Assembly (NCBI GenBank): GCA_950097145.1 | Contig: CATNCF010000002.1 | Coordinates: 62,001 to 126,000 of the forward strand | From: an uncultured Lachnospiraceae bacterium | GTDB lineage: Bacteria; Bacillota; Clostridia; Lachnospirales; Lachnospiraceae | DNA length: 64,000 bases | Direction of reading: 5' to 3' | In this document: piece by piece, positions 25,636 to 62,741 of the stretch | How the letters are laid out: each line of letters starts with the position of its first letter | Numbering within the stretch: position 1 is the first letter of the stretch | Notes under the pieces: model-generated | Seen by the model: the letters and a program-made list of their open reading frames with translations, nothing else | The model's database searches: none | What the model was told of the DNA's origin: nothing | Made by a program: the position numbers and the translations under genes

Positions 25636-25732
25636 ATGTTACAAGTAAAGAAATTACATTACTTAAGACTTTAGTAACCGGACTGGATGGAGCGTACGGC
25701 CGGAAGGGAAGGTTACAATTCCAATTATTAAA

Positions 25733-25765
25733 TGCAGCATGGAAGCTGCAGTACATTCAAGGAGG
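25733..25765 (+). promoter_or_regulatory. Candidate CsrA-binding sites in the flagellin leader
   Basis: A six-base perfect stem TGCAGC (25733-25738) / GCTGCA (25745-25750) presents ATGGAA in its loop, the classic GGA-in-loop CsrA site. A second GGA lies in the ribosome site GGAGG (25761-25765). Two-site binding with the downstream site on the Shine-Dalgarno is how CsrA represses hag in Bacillus subtilis. Both csrA and fliW are encoded in this window. Confidence 0.7.
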
Positions 25766-25773
25766 AATATATT

Positions 25774-26586
25774 ATGGTAGTACAGCACAATCTTACAGCG
25801 ATGAACGCAAACAGACAGTTAGGTATCACAACAAGCGCACAGGCTAAGTCAACTGAAAAGTTATCTTCTGGTTATAAAGTAAACCGTGCAGGCGATGACG
25901 CTGCTGGATTATCTATTTCAGAGAAGATGAGAAGCCAGATCAGAGGCTTGAACAAAGCTTCTTCTAACGCTCAGGACGGTGTTTCCTTAATCCAGGTTGC
26001 TGAGGGTGCTTTGAATGAAGTTCACTCCATCTTACAGAGAATGAATGAGCTGGCAACCCAGGCAGCGAACGATACCAACACCACTGTTGACAGAAATGCA
26101 ATCCAGAAAGAAATTAACCAGTTATCTTCTGAGATCACAAGAATCCAGTCTACCACACAGTTCAATACCATGAACCTGTTAGACGGACAATTCACTGGCA
26201 AGAACCTTCAGGTTGGTTCTCTGGCTGGACAGTCAATTCAGATCAGCATCAGCAACATGAGCGCAAGTGCTATTTCTGTAAATAACTTGAAGGTAAGTTC
26301 CTTCAGTTCTGCTGGATCTGCTATGACTAAGATTCAGAAGGCTATCGACAAGGTATCTGAGCAGAGATCTTATCTTGGTGCATTACAGAACAGATTAGAG
26401 CATACCATCGCTAACTTGGATAACGTTTCTGAGAACACATCTGCTGCTGAGTCCCGTATCCGTGACGTTGATATGGCAGAAGAGATGGTTGAGTACAGCA
26501 AGAACAACATTCTTGCACAGGCTGGACAGTCTATGCTTGCACAGGCTAATCAGTCTACACAGGGCGTATTATCCATCCTTGGCTAA
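25774..26586 (+). CDS. fliC/hag: Flagellin
   Basis: A 270-residue filament subunit. The start at 25774 follows AAGGAGGAATATATT and gives the standard MVVQHNLTAMNANRQLG; the upstream in-frame ATG at 25732 lies in the leader hairpin. D0/D1 domains are complete at both ends (TEKLSSGYKVNRAGDDAAGLSISEKMRSQIRGL; AESRIRDVDMAEEMVEYSKNNILAQAGQSMLAQAN). The Toll-like-receptor-5-type segment ILQRMNELATQAAN is retained. There is almost no D2/D3: only a short Ser-rich stretch (SISNMSASAISVNNLKVSSFSSAGSAM), the most plausible O-glycosylation surface. Codon use is cleaner than in neighbours, as expected for a highly expressed gene. Glycosyltransferase genes begin just past its terminator. Confidence 0.97.
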   Translation: MVVQHNLTAMNANRQLGITTSAQAKSTEKLSSGYKVNRAGDDAAGLSISEKMRSQIRGLNKASSNAQDGVSLIQVAEGALNEVHSILQRMNELATQAANDTNTTVDRNAIQKEINQLSSEITRIQSTTQFNTMNLLDGQFTGKNLQVGSLAGQSIQISISNMSASAISVNNLKVSSFSSAGSAMTKIQKAIDKVSEQRSYLGALQNRLEHTIANLDNVSENTSAAESRIRDVDMAEEMVEYSKNNILAQAGQSMLAQANQSTQGVLSILG

Positions 26587-39002: not shown

Positions 39003-39971
39003 TTACGAAACATTCACAATGGTTTCTTCCTTTATCCCTTCATACATATCATTTAAGATGGTCACTACTTCTTTTACATATTCTCCCACTGCCGTTTCTT
39101 CTGACATTTGTACCCCGTATACGCCAGATTTATAGATTTCGTAGAGGGCTTCTATTTCCCCAATGGTAGGCAGCGGTGTTGTTTCCATATGTTTGAGGAT
39201 TTGTGTTGCTAGAAATACTTTAACATCATAATATTGCGCTTTTTCAATAATATATTTTTGGTATCTGGGAATATTGATAATTCCTATGTCCGTAGAGAGA
39301 TCCCCTCTGTCCACCAAAATATAGGCAACCAGCGGCAAGATCTGGTTTATATTTTTTACTGCATCTAATGTCTCTATCTTAGAAATCACTTTCATATCTT
39401 CTGCCAAAAGTGATTTTGCTTCTTTTATATTATCTGCGGATCGCACAAAAGAAAGGCCTGTATATTCCAGATGATATTTATTTGCTGTCTGAATCAATTG
39501 TTTGTCTTTTTCAAACAGGAAAGGAATATCTTTATGTATTCCTCTTACATGCACGCCTTTTCCATTAATCAAGACACCGTCAGACTTCGACAAAAATCTG
39601 ATTTTTTCATGATCCGTGCCTAGAACTTCAAATTCAAATACACTGTCATTGGCCCAAGCGGTCATACCTGGTTCCAGATAACGGTAAAAATCAGAGTAAT
39701 TAAAACATTCCTTTGGAATCGTAAATTCTTCTCCCTTTATCAGCTCCACACCATCATTAGGCAGATCTTTTGTACGCACTTTATTTCCCGGCAGATCCAT
39801 GAGAATTGCGGCTCCCGGAATCTGAGCCCGGATTTCCTCTATGCAGCCCTCTATATCCTGGATAGATCCATGAGCCCCATTAATGCGATAAATATTCTTA
39901 TCACTGTGGATTTCAGAAAGAGGGACTTCATGCAAAAGTGCTGGACCTACAGTTAAAATGAATTTTTTCAT
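39003..39971 (-). CDS. Pyruvate-kinase-like protein lacking the C-terminal domain
   Basis: A 322-residue protein with the pyruvate kinase barrel but not its ~130-residue C-terminal regulatory domain, and with a shortened B domain (about 70-142); normal pyruvate kinases have ~470 or more residues. Active-site elements remain: R29 and N31 in YRINGAHG (family RLNFSHG), K198 and E200 in ISKIET, D224 in VDRGDL, T256 in LATQILKHMETTPLPTIGE and MSEETAVG. Changes such as LMDLPGNKVRT for LLDTKGPEIRT suggest altered substrate contacts. Its start overlaps the antiporter gene by four bases. It may act on phosphoenolpyruvate in glycan synthesis or as a sensor; central glycolysis seems unlikely in this location. 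Confidence 0.75.
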   Translation of the reverse strand: MKKFILTVGPALLHEVPLSEIHSDKNIYRINGAHGSIQDIEGCIEEIRAQIPGAAILMDLPGNKVRTKDLPNDGVELIKGEEFTIPKECFNYSDFYRYLEPGMTAWANDSVFEFEVLGTDHEKIRFLSKSDGVLINGKGVHVRGIHKDIPFLFEKDKQLIQTANKYHLEYTGLSFVRSADNIKEAKSLLAEDMKVISKIETLDAVKNINQILPLVAYILVDRGDLSTDIGIINIPRYQKYIIEKAQYYDVKVFLATQILKHMETTPLPTIGEIEALYEIYKSGVYGVQMSEETAVGEYVKEVVTILNDMYEGIKEETIVNVS

Positions 39972-41245
39972 GATACATTTTCTCCTTTTGTCAAATCATT
40001 AAATATGGTTTCATCCTTTTTCTGCTGTCCTCTGAGCCAATAACCGGCAATCAGGGAAGAAAGCATGGTGGTCAAAATTAACACGGTAAAAAATTCAATG
40101 TTAATAATTCCATAGTTATACGCCACTGTGGCCAAAACAATTCCAGGGCCTCCGCGGGCATTCATGGTAATGCCAAAATTCCAGATTACGCTGCGCTTTA
40201 ACGTTGTAGTAAAAAATAACATCACAACAGTCCCGATCCACTCCAGTGTAAAAGCTACTGCAAAGAAAACAGCAAAGCGCAGCAATGATATGTTATGCAG
40301 CAGGTTTAACTGTATGCCTACTAAAGCGAAATATACAGGTACAAAAAAGGAAAATGAAAAATCTGTAATACATTTTACTTTTTCTTCTGCGTTTTTGTCT
40401 CGATTGGTTATGCTTCTAATCACATATCCTGTTAAAAAAGCAGAATACATAATATTAATTTTCAGGCAGCTTAGTACCGCTATCATTCCGAACAGACAGA
40501 TAAAACATATCTGCATGAAAGAAGAATTTTCTATCGGGATATCTATTTTTTCAAATTTTTTCCCCGCGAAGTGGACAAGGAAAAACAGTGCCAGCGTCAG
40601 AAAAATCACAATGCACATATTCCCTATATTTAATTCATCGGATAGTGCAATGTCAATTGCGGTGTTTAGCAATATCCACAGACATAAATCCTGTAATGTA
40701 GAAGCAGTCAGTACAACATTGGCAAAACGCGTATTGATAATTCCCATGTCGAAGAAAATCTTTGATATCACTGGAATAGAAGTAATTGCAATCCCGATTA
40801 TAAATACAAGTAAAAATGATACGTGATTGTGAGCTTTCCCTATAAAATAAGGTTCAAATCCATTTACAAATGCTAAACCAGCCGCCATTGGGATTACTGT
40901 TGAACCAATGAATAATGATAAAAATATCCTTGAATTTTTCTTTTGCAGATCTATTTTGGTGTTGTATCCGGAGGAAAACATTAGAAATGATAAACCAAGC
41001 TGGTAAAATATGTTTAATACTTTTCCTTCTTCGGTGAAATTATCAAATACATGTTCCATTAATTCCGGCATAACTGCTCCCAGAAAAGTTCCTCCGAACA
41101 GCATTCCGCCAATGATTTCCCCCACTACTTTCGGCGCCTGTATTTTTTCAAATAGTTTTCCTGCAATGAAAGCTCCCAGCAGCAGGCACGCCAACGCAGT
41201 CAGCGTCATGGTAATCTCATTCTCTGTAAGCGTGTCTAATTTCAT
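39968..41245 (-). CDS. CPA2-type cation/proton antiporter
   Basis: A 425-residue membrane protein with about 11-12 transmembrane helices, of the KefB/NapA type Na+/H+ or K+/H+ antiporters. Recognisable parts are the N-terminal AFIAGKLFEKIQAPKVVGEIIGGMLFGGTFLG and the middle GIAITSIPVISKIFFDMGIINTRFANVVLTASTLQDLCLWILL, whose discontinuous helix carries the ion-site aspartate. There is no C-terminal RCK/TrkA-N domain (it ends LRGQQKKDETIFNDLTKGE). It is translationally coupled to the pyruvate-kinase-like gene, a pairing I do not recognise. Substrate ion cannot be told; sulfate-linked charge balance is speculation. Confidence 0.8.
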   Translation of the reverse strand: MKLDTLTENEITMTLTALACLLLGAFIAGKLFEKIQAPKVVGEIIGGMLFGGTFLGAVMPELMEHVFDNFTEEGKVLNIFYQLGLSFLMFSSGYNTKIDLQKKNSRIFLSLFIGSTVIPMAAGLAFVNGFEPYFIGKAHNHVSFLLVFIIGIAITSIPVISKIFFDMGIINTRFANVVLTASTLQDLCLWILLNTAIDIALSDELNIGNMCIVIFLTLALFFLVHFAGKKFEKIDIPIENSSFMQICFICLFGMIAVLSCLKINIMYSAFLTGYVIRSITNRDKNAEEKVKCITDFSFSFFVPVYFALVGIQLNLLHNISLLRFAVFFAVAFTLEWIGTVVMLFFTTTLKRSVIWNFGITMNARGGPGIVLATVAYNYGIINIEFFTVLILTTMLSSLIAGYWLRGQQKKDETIFNDLTKGENVS

Positions 41246-41380: not shown

Positions 41381-41638
41381 TCAGGACCTGTTTTGTATAA
41401 TTTTATAAACCCGGGAAATGCTTAAATCATACTTTCTTGCCAAATCCCTTACTTCATATTTTCCACTATAAAAGTCATCTTTTAAGCTCATGTTTCGCTG
41501 CTTCTTATCCAGCCATTCCGCATTGCCGGCTCCTGTGGGAAAGTATACTGTGGCTCCTGCCATCTGTTCCAGAACCTGTTTATAAGCGGCGTCTCCAATA
41601 ATTTCCTTTAACAGTTTCAATGCTTGTTTTGAATTCAT
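41381..41638 (-). CDS. Mor-like helix-turn-helix regulator
   Basis: An 85-residue protein: LLKEIIGDAAYKQVLEQMAGATVYFPT, then NMSLKDDFYSGKYEVRDLARKYDLSISRVYKIIQNRS. This is the layout of the Mor transcription-activator family: an N-terminal dimer strand containing YFP, and a C-terminal HTH in which DLARKYDLS is helix 2 and SRVYKII the recognition helix. The ATG at 41638 is preferred over an upstream GTG. It lies 11 bases after the ATP sulfurylase stop, inside the sulfate-activation genes, so it may regulate this cassette. Small Mor-like proteins of this kind also occur outside phages. Confidence 0.75.
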   Translation of the reverse strand: MNSKQALKLLKEIIGDAAYKQVLEQMAGATVYFPTGAGNAEWLDKKQRNMSLKDDFYSGKYEVRDLARKYDLSISRVYKIIQNRS

Positions 41639-41649
41639 CACACACCTGG

Positions 41650-42705
41650 TTATTCAATAAAAATCTTCTTGCAGCCAAGAATTGCATCAAAAATTTCCCT
41701 GCGCAGCATGATTTCGTCAGGTATCCCTTTTTCACTGATATATTTTCTGATAATGGTTCCACTTATTTCAATACGGTCAGTTTCATAATGGCTGCAATTT
41801 TTTTCACTGACTACCATGCTGCATTTCTTACAATAATATGGTTCATGAAGTAAAAGCAGGCTGATACCCAAATCATATTGTTTGGACAGTTTTCTTGCCA
41901 GTTCATGGGCGTCATAGGCTCCGTAAAAACCCCCTACGCCAGCATGATCCCGTCCAATAATAAAGTGGGTGCATCCCAGATTCCGCCTAATTATGGCATG
42001 GAAGACGGCCTCTCTGGGACCTGCATAACGCATTTGCGTTTTTAATTCTGCAATGTAAACGGAATCAGCAGGATAAAATTCTGCTGCCATTTTTTGATAC
42101 GCTGCCATTACAGCTTCCTGAGTAAAATCTCCTTTTTTCTTCCAGCCCGTAATAGGATTGATAAATAATCCGTCACATACCTCAAGTCCAATGCGCTGCA
42201 GATGTTCGTGGGCTTTATGGATAGGATTTCTGGTCTGGAATCCTACCACAGTCTCCCAGCCTTTTTCTGTAAAAACTTTTCTGGTTGCTTCCGGCTTTAG
42301 CGCATCCTCTAAAAAAGATCTGTCTATTAATCTGATTTTGCCGCCGGCTCTGCGGGGGGATCTGTTTTTCTCTTTCCTTACACCTGGGTGTTTCATATCA
42401 AGAGTACAGAATATTTTTTCAATATCTGTGTCTGATATATGATAGGTATCTTCCACTTCCATATCTGCCACATGCTTTTCATGAAAAAAAAGATGAAGGC
42501 TTTCCCCTTTTTCCACGAATAACTTTTCTGAAATATCCAATGTAACAGGAATGGTAAAAACCTGTCCGTCACAAAGGGTATAGCGTTCGATTACACTTTT
42601 GAAATCAGCCTGATTCATAAAACCTGACAGAGGGGATAAAAGCCCTGTTTCTATATTGACGATATCCTGTAATGTTTCTTCATCTATTTCAATAACGTTA
42701 TTCAT
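41650..42705 (-). CDS. sat: ATP sulfurylase (sulfate adenylyltransferase)
   Basis: A 351-residue single-chain enzyme making adenosine 5'-phosphosulfate (APS) from ATP and sulfate. Diagnostic motifs: the leader SPLSGFM at 24-30, QTRN (157-160) with HKAH (163-166) forming the sulfate and ATP site, later GRDHAGVGGFYGAYDAH, and ISGTIIRKYISEKGIPDE at the C-terminal end. It keeps the Cys pattern CKKCSMVV...CSH of zinc-binding bacterial forms. The ATG at 42705 follows GGAGAGG and overlaps cysC by eight bases; another ATG 15 bases upstream has no site. No APS or PAPS reductase gene is nearby, which argues for sulfation rather than sulfate assimilation. Confidence 0.92.
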   Translation of the reverse strand: MNNVIEIDEETLQDIVNIETGLLSPLSGFMNQADFKSVIERYTLCDGQVFTIPVTLDISEKLFVEKGESLHLFFHEKHVADMEVEDTYHISDTDIEKIFCTLDMKHPGVRKEKNRSPRRAGGKIRLIDRSFLEDALKPEATRKVFTEKGWETVVGFQTRNPIHKAHEHLQRIGLEVCDGLFINPITGWKKKGDFTQEAVMAAYQKMAAEFYPADSVYIAELKTQMRYAGPREAVFHAIIRRNLGCTHFIIGRDHAGVGGFYGAYDAHELARKLSKQYDLGISLLLLHEPYYCKKCSMVVSEKNCSHYETDRIEISGTIIRKYISEKGIPDEIMLRREIFDAILGCKKIFIE

Positions 42706-43216
42706 CGTAACCCTCTCCATATTTTGCAGCTATATAATCCTTAATCATTTGAAAAGATTCTTCTTCCGTCATCTTGTCAACTTCTATACATAGATCACAG
42801 TTCACTGGTTCATCAAATCGCTGCCCCAGTCCAACAATATCTGTTTTTCCGATATTTTCTTTATAAATACCTTTCACATCGTTTTGTATGCTGATTTGGA
42901 TATTTTTTTTCAAATAGATTTCATTATATCCAGCTATTTTACGTTTTGCTAAATTTCGCAGATGCTGGAACGGAGATATATTGCAGATAATACCAATAAT
43001 ATCATTGCGGTCTAAAAGATAAGCGCCTAATATAATCCGCTTAATATTTGCTTCTCTGTCATCATCTGTGTATCCAAGATCATTTTCAAATAATTGCCGG
43101 ACTTCATCTCCATCTAAAAGATATGTCCGATACCCTTTCTTCTTATAGAACGCTTCTAATTTTCTTCCAAGCGTTGTTTTACCAGCGCCGGAAATGCCCA
43201 TCAGCCAAATAATCAT
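42698..43216 (-). CDS. cysC: APS kinase (adenylylsulfate kinase)
   Basis: A 172-residue kinase converting APS to 3'-phosphoadenosine-5'-phosphosulfate (PAPS), the donor for sulfotransferases. P-loop GISGAGKT at residues 7-14, the LLDGDEVRQLF substrate motif, GYTDDDREANIKRI, and NDVKGIY in place of the usual RD.KGLY. It begins two bases after the stop of the 903-residue sulfotransferase-like gene and overlaps sat at its end, so all three are almost certainly one transcript. Sat then Cys C in this order gives PAPS with no route to sulfite in the window. Confidence 0.92.
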   Translation of the reverse strand: MIIWLMGISGAGKTTLGRKLEAFYKKKGYRTYLLDGDEVRQLFENDLGYTDDDREANIKRIILGAYLLDRNDIIGIICNISPFQHLRNLAKRKIAGYNEIYLKKNIQISIQNDVKGIYKENIGKTDIVGLGQRFDEPVNCDLCIEVDKMTEEESFQMIKDYIAAKYGEGYDE

Positions 43217-43218
43217 GA

Positions 43219-45930
43219 TCAGTTTTCTCCTATTTGTGCTTTATTATAAAAGACCCTGGATTCCTGGATTCCCATATCATGAAAATCCTTTTCTATTTCT
43301 TTCCAAAATAACCCTGAAGCCGATAAAATATAATAATCTTTGTAAGTAGTACAGAGCTCTTGGGGAGGTATGACTTTTTTTTCCTCGAACATATATGATT
43401 TTATTCCGGCTTTTTTATCACTGTATAAAATCCGTGCCTTTGTGCTGCCATCCATCAGTTTTAGCAATTGTCGGCAGTCTTCCCCAGTACCATAAATAAT
43501 TATTTTCTCGTGGGTTTTCACATATTCTATGGCTTGATAAATCTCCTTTTCATAATGTTGCGCCATACGTTCCGCCGCTGTCTGTTTAATTTCTATCTTT
43601 CCAAACTCTGGGGAAATATCATCCAAGAGCATATGCTTTCTGACATTCCACAACTGCCATGTTAACCATCCGCAGCTTTTTTCAGCTAATTCTCCTTTTT
43701 CAAATACAGATTCGTCTTCAAATAAAAAAGGTTTCAAAAATAATTCCTGCAGTTCCCGCCGGGTAAATTTGAGACAATTTTCATAAGGGTATCCGTACTT
43801 CTTTTGATACATACTGCTGGCAATGGAAATTCTAAAACGGTCAAATTCTGAGAGAAAATCTTCATATTTGTCAAAAACTGCTTTTAAATCAAAATCCACA
43901 CTGCCGCAGTGAGCCAGGGGTATATGCCGCCCTTTCATTGTACGGGTGGTTTTTTGCATACTGTCTGACCATGCTATGCCAAGATGGCCGCAGAGTTCCA
44001 TAAGTTTTTCCCTGGGGTGTAATTTCATATCCTCAAACCGCATCTTAAATTCTTTCCAATGCTGATACTGGAGAGGGAAACTGTCCCAGATAAAATCATC
44101 CAAAAACAGAATGGGATATGGATCGTACACAGATTCCCATCCTCTTTTTGCCCGGGCCAACCCGGATCCTGCTCGTACAATGTTGTTTCTGCGCAGCACA
44201 AGTGTCTGTCCATTTACTTTTGCATCTTCCAGCCAAAGAGCAAAAAAAGCAAATGTATTCCGGGGTATTAAATGCGGTTCCCAGTAAATAACCAGGTTGG
44301 AAATATCCGATATTTGCTGCTCCCTTAACATTTCTGCATAAGCGATGTGAAATAGCACAAATAATTCCTGGGAGGTAAAACGTTTCTTTAATTTCAAGAA
44401 TCGCCTTACACTATTGTTAAACCTTTCAGGGTTTGGAAATTCCTCTTCTTTATTACATGCTTCGCGCTGATAGATTTTCCAAAAGTTGTCTAAAACTTTG
44501 TTTGCGTCGATGTTGGCAAGACAAATACAGTAAAAAAATAAATTATTATTCAAATCCGATTCTGGATTGACCAGGAGTTCCGGATGCCCGTCTAAAACGC
44601 CCCGTACAAATACGTTTCCGCTCCAGCCTGGTATCCGGCCCAAACAGATTCCTTTGGGTGTCAGGGCAGAAAGTGTGTATTTCTCAATATTCTGATTCCG
44701 ATACAGTTCCATCAGCATATAGGCTCTATTACTGCTAAAATAATCTGTATAATCCTGGATTCCCATTTTTGAAAGTTGTTTCTGCAGCTTGCGATATTTT
44801 TCTTCTGCTACATACTGCAAAGTATTATAATACTCTGGGATCACTAAACATCGTATTTCTCCTTGATTTACAGAGAGCCTTTGATCCATTTCTATGATAG
44901 AAACATCAATACAGCCGTTTTCAACCCTGTACAGATAATCTGATAACTGATTACATAACACACAATCCCCTATCAGCAAAACCTTCTTTTGGCGCAGCAC
45001 ATGAACCAGATTGCTTTGGGGAATCTCCTTGAAATAATCTTTCAAAAGAAAATACTGCTGATTTCTTTTATATCCCAGATAGTTAAAATATTCTGTCAGT
45101 TTTTCTCCCAGGGCTCCATAACAGTCTTTGCAGTTTATAAAGACAGGCTTTTGAAGTTGTCTCATAGCGTCTGGGATGCTCAGCACGCTCTTTCCCAACA
45201 GTTCCTGCGGATGCTTTTCTTCTGCTGCAAACCCCAAAATATCAATTCCATGCGCCATAAGCAGGTCGTAAGCATCCTGGGCAGTCCGATCCACTCCCAA
45301 AATAAGAATTTCCTGTTCCTTGCGCAGTATATCAAGAAACATTTCTTTGTTCCCTATGGTATTGTGGATTCTGTTTTGCAATATGTTTGTCTCATAGATC
45401 TTATTGATACATTCAAATTCCGGAGAGACACTTCTTTTTCTTCTTTCAGAAAGATCCATGTCATAACACACAGCGCCCTCTGCATATACAACCAATGTTT
45501 TTCTTCTGTTGGTTTTGTGGGCGCTTTTATATCCAAGTAAATCCCAATAGTCTCCAGTGACAGATACCGTGATTCCTACACAGTTCAAATAGTCTGCCAG
45601 ACAGGACGCTAATTCGTTGCATCCGCATATCAGAACTTCTTTATAGTCGGGAAAAATATCAGTAAACTGTAAAGCGTTCTCATTTTCCCTAAGTTCTTCC
45701 AGCATGCGAAGTTCCCGATTCGCCTCGCTGTCTTGATAAGCGAAACAGATAATTTCCCCTGAATCATCTGTCAGCGGAATAAGATAATCCTCACAGTCAT
45801 CATAAGAGGTGAAAAGAAAAGCTTCCTTTACTTTTTTCCAAATATTCTCATGGAAACATAGTGGTTTTCTGGATAAAGCTGCCTGGCAGTCTTTCTGGGT
45901 GATATCTTCTTTCCTGCAAAAACGTATCAT
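43219..45930 (-). CDS. Large multidomain protein with sulfotransferase-like core
   Basis: A 903-residue protein not known to me as one family. The first ~400 residues hold two or three Rossmann-like NDP-sugar-binding modules (VLICGCNELASCLADYL; EILILGVDRTAQDAYDLL; KVLLIGDCVLCNQLSDYL). Residues about 425-740 look like a sulfotransferase: ICLGRIPGWSGNVFVRGVLDGHPELLVNPESD near the start, NIVRAGSGLARAKRGWESVYDPYPILFLDDFIWD in the middle, and RFEDMKLHPREKLMELCGHLGIAWSDSMQKTTRTMKG, the usual R-x-E-D-(L/M)-x-x-x-P...L..LC..LGI pattern. The C-terminal ~110 residues are another Rossmann-like module (KIIIYGTGEDCRQLLKL). Adjacent cysC and sat would supply PAPS. GGAGG precedes the ATG. The sulfotransferase call rests on pattern and context. 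Confidence 0.65.
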   Translation of the reverse strand: MIRFCRKEDITQKDCQAALSRKPLCFHENIWKKVKEAFLFTSYDDCEDYLIPLTDDSGEIICFAYQDSEANRELRMLEELRENENALQFTDIFPDYKEVLICGCNELASCLADYLNCVGITVSVTGDYWDLLGYKSAHKTNRRKTLVVYAEGAVCYDMDLSERRKRSVSPEFECINKIYETNILQNRIHNTIGNKEMFLDILRKEQEILILGVDRTAQDAYDLLMAHGIDILGFAAEEKHPQELLGKSVLSIPDAMRQLQKPVFINCKDCYGALGEKLTEYFNYLGYKRNQQYFLLKDYFKEIPQSNLVHVLRQKKVLLIGDCVLCNQLSDYLYRVENGCIDVSIIEMDQRLSVNQGEIRCLVIPEYYNTLQYVAEEKYRKLQKQLSKMGIQDYTDYFSSNRAYMLMELYRNQNIEKYTLSALTPKGICLGRIPGWSGNVFVRGVLDGHPELLVNPESDLNNNLFFYCICLANIDANKVLDNFWKIYQREACNKEEEFPNPERFNNSVRRFLKLKKRFTSQELFVLFHIAYAEMLREQQISDISNLVIYWEPHLIPRNTFAFFALWLEDAKVNGQTLVLRRNNIVRAGSGLARAKRGWESVYDPYPILFLDDFIWDSFPLQYQHWKEFKMRFEDMKLHPREKLMELCGHLGIAWSDSMQKTTRTMKGRHIPLAHCGSVDFDLKAVFDKYEDFLSEFDRFRISIASSMYQKKYGYPYENCLKFTRRELQELFLKPFLFEDESVFEKGELAEKSCGWLTWQLWNVRKHMLLDDISPEFGKIEIKQTAAERMAQHYEKEIYQAIEYVKTHEKIIIYGTGEDCRQLLKLMDGSTKARILYSDKKAGIKSYMFEEKKVIPPQELCTTYKDYYILSASGLFWKEIEKDFHDMGIQESRVFYNKAQIGEN

Positions 45931-46030: not shown

Positions 46031-47338
46031 TTATAACTGCCAGTAATCATATTCTTGTTCTGGGAAATCTTTTTTTTCATACATCCCTTTTAAGTCAAAA
46101 AGAAGTTTTCTAGTTTTTCCAGAAAATCGTGTTCCAAACCATTCCGTTCCTAAATTTTGAAATATTTGATGCTGCACACAGATCACAATGGCGTCCACTT
46201 CCCTTATCTCTTCCAAAGGCAGTAAGCGGATATTATAGAAATGTTCTGCTTCCTGTTTATCCGCTACATCATCCGATACCAATGGTTCAATACCGTATGT
46301 CCGCAGTTCAGTGATAATATCGATCACCTTGGTGTTTCTGGTATCCTGGCAGTTTTCTTTAAATGCAAATCCCAGAATCGCAACCTTTGCCGTCTTGATT
46401 GCACAGTCTGCCTGAATCAGCGCTTTTACAATATTTTCTGCAACATATCTTCCCATATCGTCATTAATGCGGCGGCCTGATAAAATAATCTGTGAATGAT
46501 AGCCCAATTGTTCTGCCTTGTGGGTCAGATAATAAGGGTCTACACCGATACAGTGTCCGCCCACCAAACCCGGATAAAAATTTAAGAAATTCCACTTTGT
46601 CCTGGCAGCTTCCAGTACAGCTCTTGTGTCAATGCCCATTTTATGGAAGATAATGGACAGTTCATTCATAAATGCAATATTGATATCCCTCTGGCTGTTT
46701 TCTATTACTTTTGCTGCTTCTGCCACTTTGATAGAATCCGCCCGGTATACGCCCGCGAGTGCAACTAATTCATATACTTCAGCTACAATATCCAGTGTCT
46801 CTTTATCCATTCCAGATACTACTTTTATAATAGTAGAAAGCACATGCTCTTTGTCGCATGGATTGATCCGTTCTGGAGAATATCCTACCTTAAAGTCCCT
46901 GCCGCATTTCAATCCGCTTTCTCGTTCTAAGACAGGGACGCATTCTTCTTCTGTTACGCCTGGATAAACGGTACTTTCATATACTACAACCGCTCCCTTT
47001 TTCATATTTCTGCCGACGATGCCAGAAGCAGAAAGAACAGGGGTTAAATCAGGTGTTTTATCACTTTTGACAGGAGTTGGAACAGCAATAATAAAAAAGT
47101 CTGCAAGACGTAAGTCTTTTTCCAGACAGGTAAACATGATAGAAGTGTTTCTAACAGTATCATTTCCGACTTCTTTGGTGGGATCTACCCCTTGCTGATA
47201 CAGTCTGATTTTTTCTTTATTTATATCAAATCCGATAACATCCAGCTTCTTTGCAAATGCTGCAGCCAGCGGCATTCCCACATACCCCAGTCCTATTACG
47301 GCTAATTTTGTTTTTTTCGCTGTTAATTCTGCTATCAT
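46031..47338 (-). CDS. UDP-N-acetylhexosamine 6-dehydrogenase (TviB/WbpA-like)
   Basis: A 435-residue nucleotide-sugar dehydrogenase that oxidises the C6 alcohol of a UDP-HexNAc to the uronic acid in two NAD steps. N-terminal KLAVIGLGYVGMPLAAAFAKKLDVIGFDIN, central YSPERINPCDKEHVL, KVAEAAKVIENSQRDINIAFMNEL and the catalytic cysteine in GGHCIGVDPYYL. The SPERINP and QRDINIA forms are those of TviB/WbpA (UDP-GlcNAc) rather than UDP-glucose dehydrogenases. The ATG at 47338 has AGAGG six bases upstream; an ATG at 47344 sits too close to it. Together with the WbpP/TviC-like epimerase this gives UDP-GalNAcA or similar. Confidence 0.88.
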   Translation of the reverse strand: MIAELTAKKTKLAVIGLGYVGMPLAAAFAKKLDVIGFDINKEKIRLYQQGVDPTKEVGNDTVRNTSIMFTCLEKDLRLADFFIIAVPTPVKSDKTPDLTPVLSASGIVGRNMKKGAVVVYESTVYPGVTEEECVPVLERESGLKCGRDFKVGYSPERINPCDKEHVLSTIIKVVSGMDKETLDIVAEVYELVALAGVYRADSIKVAEAAKVIENSQRDINIAFMNELSIIFHKMGIDTRAVLEAARTKWNFLNFYPGLVGGHCIGVDPYYLTHKAEQLGYHSQIILSGRRINDDMGRYVAENIVKALIQADCAIKTAKVAILGFAFKENCQDTRNTKVIDIITELRTYGIEPLVSDDVADKQEAEHFYNIRLLPLEEIREVDAIVICVQHQIFQNLGTEWFGTRFSGKTRKLLFDLKGMYEKKDFPEQEYDYWQL

Positions 47339-47394
47339 ATCCATCCTCTTTTCATTTTTTGACTAAGTTCTGCATAGTTTTGACGTATAGAATA

Positions 47395-61760: not shown

Positions 61761-62741
61761 ATGAAAAAAGTATTAGTTACCGGGGCGGACGGGTTTATCG
61801 GAAGCCACCTAGCAGAAAGTTTATTGGAAAAAGGCTATGACGTCAGGGCGTTTGTATATTACAACTCCTTCGGGAACTGGGGCTGGCTGGACACGCTGCC
61901 CAGAGAAAAGCGGAACAGCATTGAAATCTTTGCCGGAGACATCCGGGATCCCAACGGGGTGCGGACGGCAATGAAAGGGGCCGCCCAGGTATTCCACTTG
62001 GCCGCCCTGATTGCCATTCCTTTCAGCTACCATTCCCCGGATTCTTATGTGGACACCAATATAAAAGGAACCCTGAATGTGCTGCAGGCGGCAAGGGAGC
62101 TGGAAACAGAAAAGATCATGGTGACGTCTACCTCGGAAGTATACGGGACCGCCCAGTATGTCCCCATAGACGAAAAGCACCCCTTCCAGGGCCAGTCCCC
62201 CTATTCGGCAACGAAAATCGGAGCGGACAGGCTGGCGGAGAGCTTTTACCGGAGTTTCGGCCTGCCGGTTTCCATTGTAAGGCCCTTTAATACTTACGGC
62301 CCCAGGCAGTCGGCCAGGGCAGTGATCCCAACGATTATTTCCCAGCTCCTGGCAGGGAAGGAAGAGATCCGGCTTGGCTCCCTGACGCCTACCAGAGACT
62401 TTAACTATGTAAAAGACACAGCGGCAGGCTTCATCGCCATTGCTGAGTCGGAACGTACCATTGGAGAGGAAATCAATATCGCCACGGGCCGGGAACTATC
62501 CATTGGAGACCTGGCAGGAACCATCATCCGCCAGATTAATCCCAAAGCAGAAATTGTCTGTGAACAGCAGCGCCTAAGACCTGAAAAAAGCGAAGTCAGC
62601 CGTCTTTTGGGCAGCAATGCCAAAATAAAGGAACTGACAGACTGGAAACAGCAGTACACCTTTGAACAGGGGATTGCGGAAACCATCGCCTGGATGCGTG
62701 AAAATATGGGGCGGTACAAGGCAGATATTTATAACTTATAA
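61761..62741 (+). CDS. legB: NAD-dependent 4,6-dehydratase (LegB-like SDR)
   Basis: A 326-residue extended SDR: KVLVTGADGFIGSHLAESLLEKGYDVRAFVYYNSFGNWGWLDTLP, with NAD loop GXXGXXG. VTSTSEVYGTAQYVPIDEKHPFQGQSPYSATKIGADRL holds the catalytic Y-x-x-x-K with the Glu used by 4,6-dehydratases (TSEVYG), and NTYGPRQSARAVIPTIISQL completes the LegB pattern. In the GDP-legionaminate route it acts on GDP-GlcNAc. It starts one base after the previous stop. Not all steps are in the window: no dedicated LegC aminotransferase or LegF CMP-transferase gene is seen here. Confidence 0.88.
   Translation: MKKVLVTGADGFIGSHLAESLLEKGYDVRAFVYYNSFGNWGWLDTLPREKRNSIEIFAGDIRDPNGVRTAMKGAAQVFHLAALIAIPFSYHSPDSYVDTNIKGTLNVLQAARELETEKIMVTSTSEVYGTAQYVPIDEKHPFQGQSPYSATKIGADRLAESFYRSFGLPVSIVRPFNTYGPRQSARAVIPTIISQLLAGKEEIRLGSLTPTRDFNYVKDTAAGFIAIAESERTIGEEINIATGRELSIGDLAGTIIRQINPKAEIVCEQQRLRPEKSEVSRLLGSNAKIKELTDWKQQYTFEQGIAETIAWMRENMGRYKADIYNL

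Follow-up and report, generated by a model that had tools for sequence, protein, structure and literature searches.

What does a pair of sulfate-activating genes do inside a flagellar glycan island? The question is raised by a stretch of 64,000 nucleotides (the window) from an uncultured Lachnospiraceae bacterium, covering positions 62,001 to 126,000 of contig CATNCF010000002.1 in GenBank assembly GCA_950097145.1. An operon on its minus strand encodes the ATP sulfurylase Sat, the adenosine 5'-phosphosulfate (APS) kinase CysC and a 903-residue sulfotransferase-like protein, ST. The original prediction, made from the sequence alone, had read these genes as a cassette that forms 3'-phosphoadenosine 5'-phosphosulfate (PAPS) for sulfation of a surface or flagellin glycan. 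PAPS-dependent glycan sulfation by Sat, CysC and ST, with a regulator, an antiporter and a pyruvate-kinase-like protein (PK-like) as partners, is the explanation preferred here, at a probability of about 0.68. Loci are numbered with L and genomes with G; G000 is the window genome.

Operon structure and sulfate activation

In the order of transcription, the operon comprised ST (43219..45930), CysC (42698..43216), Sat (41650..42720), a Mor-type helix-turn-helix regulator of 86 amino acids (41381..41641; PF08765, Mor, E 1.6e-9), a CPA2-type cation:proton antiporter-like membrane protein (39968..41245; PF00999, E 2.5e-39) and PK-like with 322 amino acids (39003..39971). The original prediction had covered 41381..45930, and all four of its open reading frames (ORFs) were recovered in place on the minus strand. 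ST and CysC were separated by 2 bases and Sat and the regulator by 8 bases; CysC and Sat overlapped by 23 bases and the antiporter and PK-like by 4. The coordinates, overlaps and Pfam matches confirmed that Sat, CysC and the 903-residue protein are contiguous. The predicted range was too narrow: the antiporter and PK-like (39003-41245) are part of the unit. With TIGR00932, the antiporter reached E 1e-26, but its 94 bits fell short of the cut-off, which is 238.

Sat showed the ATP-sulfurylase (PF01747, E 1.7e-76) and PUA_2 (E 2.8e-29) domains above cut-off and a match to the solved structure 8a8d at E 3.1e-88. It passed the cut-off of NF003166 and stayed under that of TIGR00339 (301.9 versus 322.95). 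CysC exceeded the cut-off of PF01583 (E 5.1e-33) and scored below those of TIGR00455 (127.8 versus 138.7) and PRK05541 (98.1 versus 127). The latter was passed by the kinases of the phosphoramidate-type loci in G005 and G018, with 186.5 and 188.8. CysC is thus not of the PRK05541 type, and it was the single APS-kinase-domain match in the window genome. Both proteins aligned with solved ATP sulfurylases and APS kinases across most of their length. Judged by Pfam and by these alignments, Sat and CysC are an intact PAPS-forming pair, as had been proposed. Sat would convert sulfate and ATP to APS, which CysC would phosphorylate to PAPS. The regulator and the antiporter may work for the same operon.

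The sulfotransferase-like protein

The core of ST (residues 406-740, 43711..44715, minus strand), used for alignment A4, was flanked on either side by Rossmann-like modules. With the ST sequence alone, the best match in the PDB had an E-value of just 0.13. A core profile built from six homologues matched tyrosylprotein sulfotransferase-2 at E 3.7e-4, and sulfotransferases made up eight of the nine PDB matches at E<=1. In a structural search with the ST model, 13 of the 50 matches listed started at model residues 405-423, and all 13 were sulfotransferases. A relative of ST in G333 passed the cut-off of Pfam Sulfotransfer with 30.4 bits. The sulfotransferase-like core of the original prediction therefore stood: in profile it appears to resemble PAPS sulfotransferases, with a weaker resemblance in fold. 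At about 15% identity, it has a C-terminal motif in common with the sulfotransferase domains of CurM and olefin synthase and with tyrosylprotein sulfotransferase and, judged from a weak model, may also have their fold. Unlike in these proteins, the core of ST is embedded between Rossmann-like modules, and S-G-N (S437-G438-N439, kept in all six rows of the core alignment) stands in place of the S-G-T that is usual in the PAPS loop of sulfotransferases. With PAPS as sulfo donor, ST would sulfate a sugar hydroxyl of the island's surface or flagellin glycan.

Recurrence of the cassette

Using a Sat alignment, 54 Sat loci were collected from named genomes and grouped by record title. Fifteen belonged to Bacillota (L030-L044). 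Carriers with a strain or species name, presumably in culture, included Lachnospiraceae bacterium 3-2, Pseudobutyrivibrio ruminis CF1b and Anaerosacchariphilus polymeriproducens. G370 and G165, the genomes of L034 and L041, add no further loci, and both were within the query alignments A1 and A2. In tblastn searches, CysC was found in all 15 Bacillota loci, PK-like, the antiporter and the regulator in 13 each and ST in four. A fifth ST-bearing locus, L043, held a C-terminal ST fragment (phmmer E 1e-4) at a contig end, 16 bases before CysC. Apart from this fragment, the window and the loci L031, L033, L036 and L038 had an ST-like gene immediately upstream of CysC. In L051, a distant protein overlapped CysC (hhalign 95%, no Pfam match). 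The set of CysC, Sat, regulator, antiporter and PK-like was recurrent in other Bacillota, and this recurrence argues that the gene order is not due to chance. The antiporter was also present in the Campylobacter loci L048 and L050. Within the family, Sat was rare, occurring in three of 397 genomes.

Further genes were observed at these loci. An inositol-monophosphatase-family protein followed shortly after CysC-Sat-PK in L045 and L046; it is presumably CysQ-like and would clear 3'-phosphoadenosine 5'-phosphate. Six of the 15 Bacillota loci had a sulfatase-family-like protein near the cassette (L033, L034, L036, L041, L042 and L044). PF00884 was above cut-off on this protein in L042, L044 and G370 (L034), just under it in G165 (L041) and unseen in L033. 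A large protein was located between CysC and Sat in three loci (L033:7702-9939, L036:7709-11050 and L038:7704-9941), with citrate-lyase-ligase and ILEI domains (Pfam) in L033 and L036; a single ORF joined it to Sat in L036. Upstream of CysC in L031, two tandem sulfotransferase-like genes were present (L031:3047-9474), the second split into two ORFs.

The pyruvate-kinase-like partner of Sat

PK-like was found beside Sat in 30 of the 54 loci, in bacteria and archaea. It was present in 13/15 loci of Bacillota, 4/5 of Campylobacterota, 11/12 of other bacteria, 2/4 of other archaea and 0/18 of Thermoproteota-type archaea. The PK match of L079 was confined to the nucleotidyltransferase tail of the fused form, so 30 rather than 31 loci were counted. 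Outside the Thermoproteota-type group, PK-like was not found in L039, L043, L047, L060, L066 and L079. The contigs of L039 and L047, and likewise some Thermoproteota-type contigs, stop <=1.7 kb from Sat; L043 offers 10 kb of room. The gap between Sat and PK-like, measured in 27 loci, was <=100 bases in 14, with 12 of those between -4 and 9, and >6 kb in two Bacillota loci. Among the 397 genomes of the family survey, PK-like (E<=1e-75) and Sat occurred in exactly the same three, from which the PK-like model had been built. The nearest relatives of PK-like were from Lachnospiraceae.

A tree was calculated from 43 rows, 28 Sat-linked and 15 other pyruvate kinase barrels; the partial barrels of L068 and L126 had been dropped beforehand, and the tblastn-only finds L074 and L077 were never included. 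A single branch separated the two groups with a support of 100/100. The motif D-L-P-G-N-K (window residues 59-64) occurred in 25 of the 28 Sat-linked rows, which here exclude the split row of L068, and in none of the 15 other rows covering the site. Position 110 was serine in 22/28 Sat-linked rows and glycine in 16/16 others. R29, N31, R66, K138, K198, E200 and D224 were present in all 28, and T256 was replaced by serine in three. The window protein holds all eight of these residues, which we take to be catalytic. Lysine at position 64 (rabbit 117), presumably a mark of potassium-independent pyruvate kinases, was also present in five rows that were not linked to Sat.

PK-like of the window matched PF00224 (E 1.1e-44), the barrel model, and not PF02887, the C-terminal domain; its score on TIGR01064 was 203.2 bits against a cut-off of 306.4. 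Relatives with the C-terminal domain (Pfam) were present in L056, L058 and L080. A nucleotidyltransferase domain was fused to the PK-like barrel adjoining Sat in L075 and L068 (Pfam), and L074, L077, L078 and L081 resembled L075 or its near relative L078 along their length. The form in L068 seems to be without the B domain. PK-like was rejected as the ordinary pyruvate kinase of its genome: PF00224 matched two more proteins in G000, and of 18 genomes searched, 16 gave at least one additional match to this model. Contig 6 of G000 encodes another short pyruvate-kinase-like protein, with 338 amino acids and a very long tree branch (L112:1755-2771). PK-like thus has the barrel and catalytic residues of pyruvate kinase, but differs from it in its signature residues, its side of the tree, its genomic partner Sat and, in the window, the missing C-terminal domain.

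PK-like would be a dedicated partner of Sat. Our top-ranked guess for its function is that it uses phosphoenolpyruvate (PEP) to regenerate ATP from ADP, thereby driving the uphill activation of sulfate; this would be consistent with its general association with sulfate activation and with its intact active site. A report of Sat with such a partner was not found in the open-access literature, which leaves most subscription papers out of reach.

Relatives of ST beside phosphoramidate-type genes

Relatives of the ST core were detected in six further genomes (G005, G018, G024, G028, G333 and G397). In G018, G024, G028 and G333, the relative adjoined a PRK05849-family gene, presumably a glutamine kinase of the Cj1418 kind, and in G005 such a gene was one gene fragment away from a broken copy. 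For the genes of G005 and G018 this family name was verified, and those of G024, G028 and G333 (L110) were assigned by similarity. A neighbouring hydrolase in G005 and G018 matched gamma-glutamyl-CDP-amidate hydrolase (CDP, cytidine diphosphate) below cut-off. Genes for an amidotransferase, a nucleotidyltransferase and a CysC-like kinase followed in G005 (L014), G018 (L016) and G024 (L017). We take Cj1415 of Campylobacter jejuni to be a CysC-like kinase as well. The proteins Cj1415-1418 of this organism make CDP-phosphoramidate 3'-phosphate in the O-methyl phosphoramidate pathway, and the name cytidine diphosphoramidate kinase occurs in the reference list of the same paper (PMC11800397). The C. 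jejuni system resembles that proposed for the window in using a 3'-phosphorylated nucleotide donor, as PAPS is, for sugar decoration, and relatives of ST adjoin such genes. It differs in the donor itself, and the window genome gave no match for the presumed glutamine kinase.

The position of ST relatives by a phosphoramidate-type kinase gene in five of the six further genomes suggests one transferase family with two donors. This picture leaves G397 unexplained. A broader joint reading would connect both families: the distinct PK-like family as a dedicated partner of Sat in bacteria and archaea, adding a PEP-driven step to the sulfate activation of sulfation, and the ST family that it feeds using PAPS or 3'-phospho-CDP-phosphoramidate according to the adjoining cassette, to decorate surface or flagellin glycans. 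We regard this reading as tentative, with the odds somewhat against it.

Weighing the alternative explanations

Glycan sulfation is favoured by the intact Sat and CysC, the single APS-kinase match in the genome and the glycan and flagellar genes around the operon. Several findings weigh against it. On Pfam Sulfotransfer_3, ST scored 13.4 bits (residues 628-656) against a cut-off of 27; a close homologue in L033 was without a Pfam match and the homologue in L031 was only sub-threshold. The structural check of the predicted core came out mixed: beside the sulfotransferase matches starting at residues 405-423, the full-length model was weak, with a predicted local distance difference test (pLDDT) of 57.5 and a predicted template modelling score (pTM) of 0.37, the core-only model was weaker still (pLDDT 53.2), and Foldseek gave no match at E<=0.001. 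ST-like genes were found in just 5/15 Bacillota cassettes, so the acceptor enzymes of the others must be of another kind or be encoded elsewhere. An ST-like protein (L109:11515-14022) is present in G397, a genome 99% complete in which Sat, APS kinase and the phosphoramidate-type kinase all went unmatched. It is very improbable that the group moved by the 903-residue enzyme is not sulfate but, say, a phosphoramidate taken from a 3'-phospho-CDP donor. The neighbourhood of its relatives, with PRK05849-family genes and the hydrolase relative, would fit such a transfer, but G000 has no match for that kinase, glutamine-kinase matches in the five other genomes with ST and Sat were absent or just 36 to 38 residues long, and the window CysC overlaps Sat and scores under the PRK05541 cut-off. 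Sat and CysC could also supply assimilation or another use of PAPS or APS, through a reductase not found in this analysis. In one methanogen, PAPS reductase is said to be among the atypical later enzymes of this route. Sulfate assimilation through such enzymes is described for this organism (PMC10322725). G000 is only 82.8% complete, and an APS-kinase domain was located in an open frame of 627-637 amino acids, CysNC-like by size, in the genomes of L041, L042, L033 and L036. In searches for CysH-type reductases, with non-CysH PAPS reductases and sulfite reductase not searched for, none of the 12 cassette genomes, G000 included, passed the TIGR00434 cut-off, although seven gave weak matches under it; seven of 14 control genomes passed. 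For the CysH type, the predicted absence of a reductase was thereby upheld. Three PAPS_reduct-domain proteins of G000 were rejected as CysH, being nowhere close to the cut-off. One is a DUF3440 protein adjoining a ParB-like gene; the two others lie on a single contig, on either side of a ParB-like gene, in a setting that is prophage-like by eye. Considering also the position of the cassette among glycan genes and with a sulfotransferase-like gene, we judge assimilation to be very unlikely.

Glycan sulfation by the operon leaves a choice of acceptor. Flagellin glycan is plausible from position. The flagellar genes of the window lie at 15.8-26.6 kb (two FlgK-like proteins, a flagellin-N-domain protein, FlgL by position, FliD, FlgN and flagellin), and the island begins beside flagellin (25732..26586, plus strand; PF00669 E 3.2e-43, PF00700 E 1.5e-29). 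Upstream of the operon are a nucleotide-sugar dehydrogenase (46031..47344, minus strand; TIGR03026 above cut-off), a family 2 glycosyltransferase and further glycan genes. In L037, the cassette comes after genes for FlgK and flagellin; in L041 it is flanked by Maf-type genes, and in L031 flagellin is 2.5 kb beyond it. Within the locus stretches examined, flagellin, FlgK or Maf genes were present in these three of the 15 Bacillota loci and in none of the other 12. The claim of surface or flagellin glycan sulfation is therefore sustained by the PAPS pair, the sulfotransferase-like core and the flagellar setting, with position alone pointing to flagellin. A capsule, a teichoic-acid-like polymer or a lipid could instead be sulfated, with the flagellar position incidental. 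This would agree with a CDP-glycerol phosphotransferase-like gene directly before the Sat-PK or PK-Sat pair in one bacterium and one archaeon (L049:7804-8955 and L071:7791-8933) and a CDP-alcohol phosphatidyltransferase gene by the pair in L080; we give it about one chance in three. For PK-like, ATP recharging is opposed by 11 of the 30 Sat-PK loci, which lack CysC, whose ADP PK-like would recharge, and by the genome of Campylobacter taeniopygiae, with only a truncated APS-kinase frame. These make an action of PK-like on APS, or on another intermediate of sulfate activation, a live rival. The only APS-kinase-domain match in another Campylobacter genome (1.2 Mb, probably incomplete) was a PRK05541-type kinase. 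The truncated frame in C. taeniopygiae (L130:8293-9535) overlaps a DUF2972 protein. CysC is, however, present in 19 of the 30 loci, including all 13 of Bacillota, PK-like has the same catalytic residues as pyruvate kinase, and the CysC-less genomes are mostly metagenome-assembled and may be incomplete. Action on APS appears rather unlikely.

Relation to known systems and implications

Sulfate groups on sugars alter binding and charge. Sulfated capsules with clustered PAPS genes are already known, and the capsule locus of Vibrio sp. KMM 8419 contains cysC, cysN, cysD and sulfotransferases (PMC11641403). As described for that locus, PAPS genes and sulfotransferases lie within a polysaccharide cluster, as in the window. 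CysND stands there in place of Sat and a Gram-negative capsule in place of a flagellar island, and the words pyruvate kinase and antiporter are absent from the main text of that paper. With the same limit on subscription papers as above, the open-access literature yielded no report of bacterial flagellin sulfation, reviews of archaeal archaellin being among the results, and no report of Lachnospiraceae in which Sat or CysC is accompanied by sulfotransferases.

A source of PAPS in a flagellated member of Bacillota, in which no sulfate-reduction pathway was found, would allow the sulfation of flagellin to be tested in cultured cells. If one transferase family does encounter both donors, PAPS and phosphoramidate chemistries could be compared directly. 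The Sat-linked PK-like family suggests an overlooked part of sulfate activation in several phyla.

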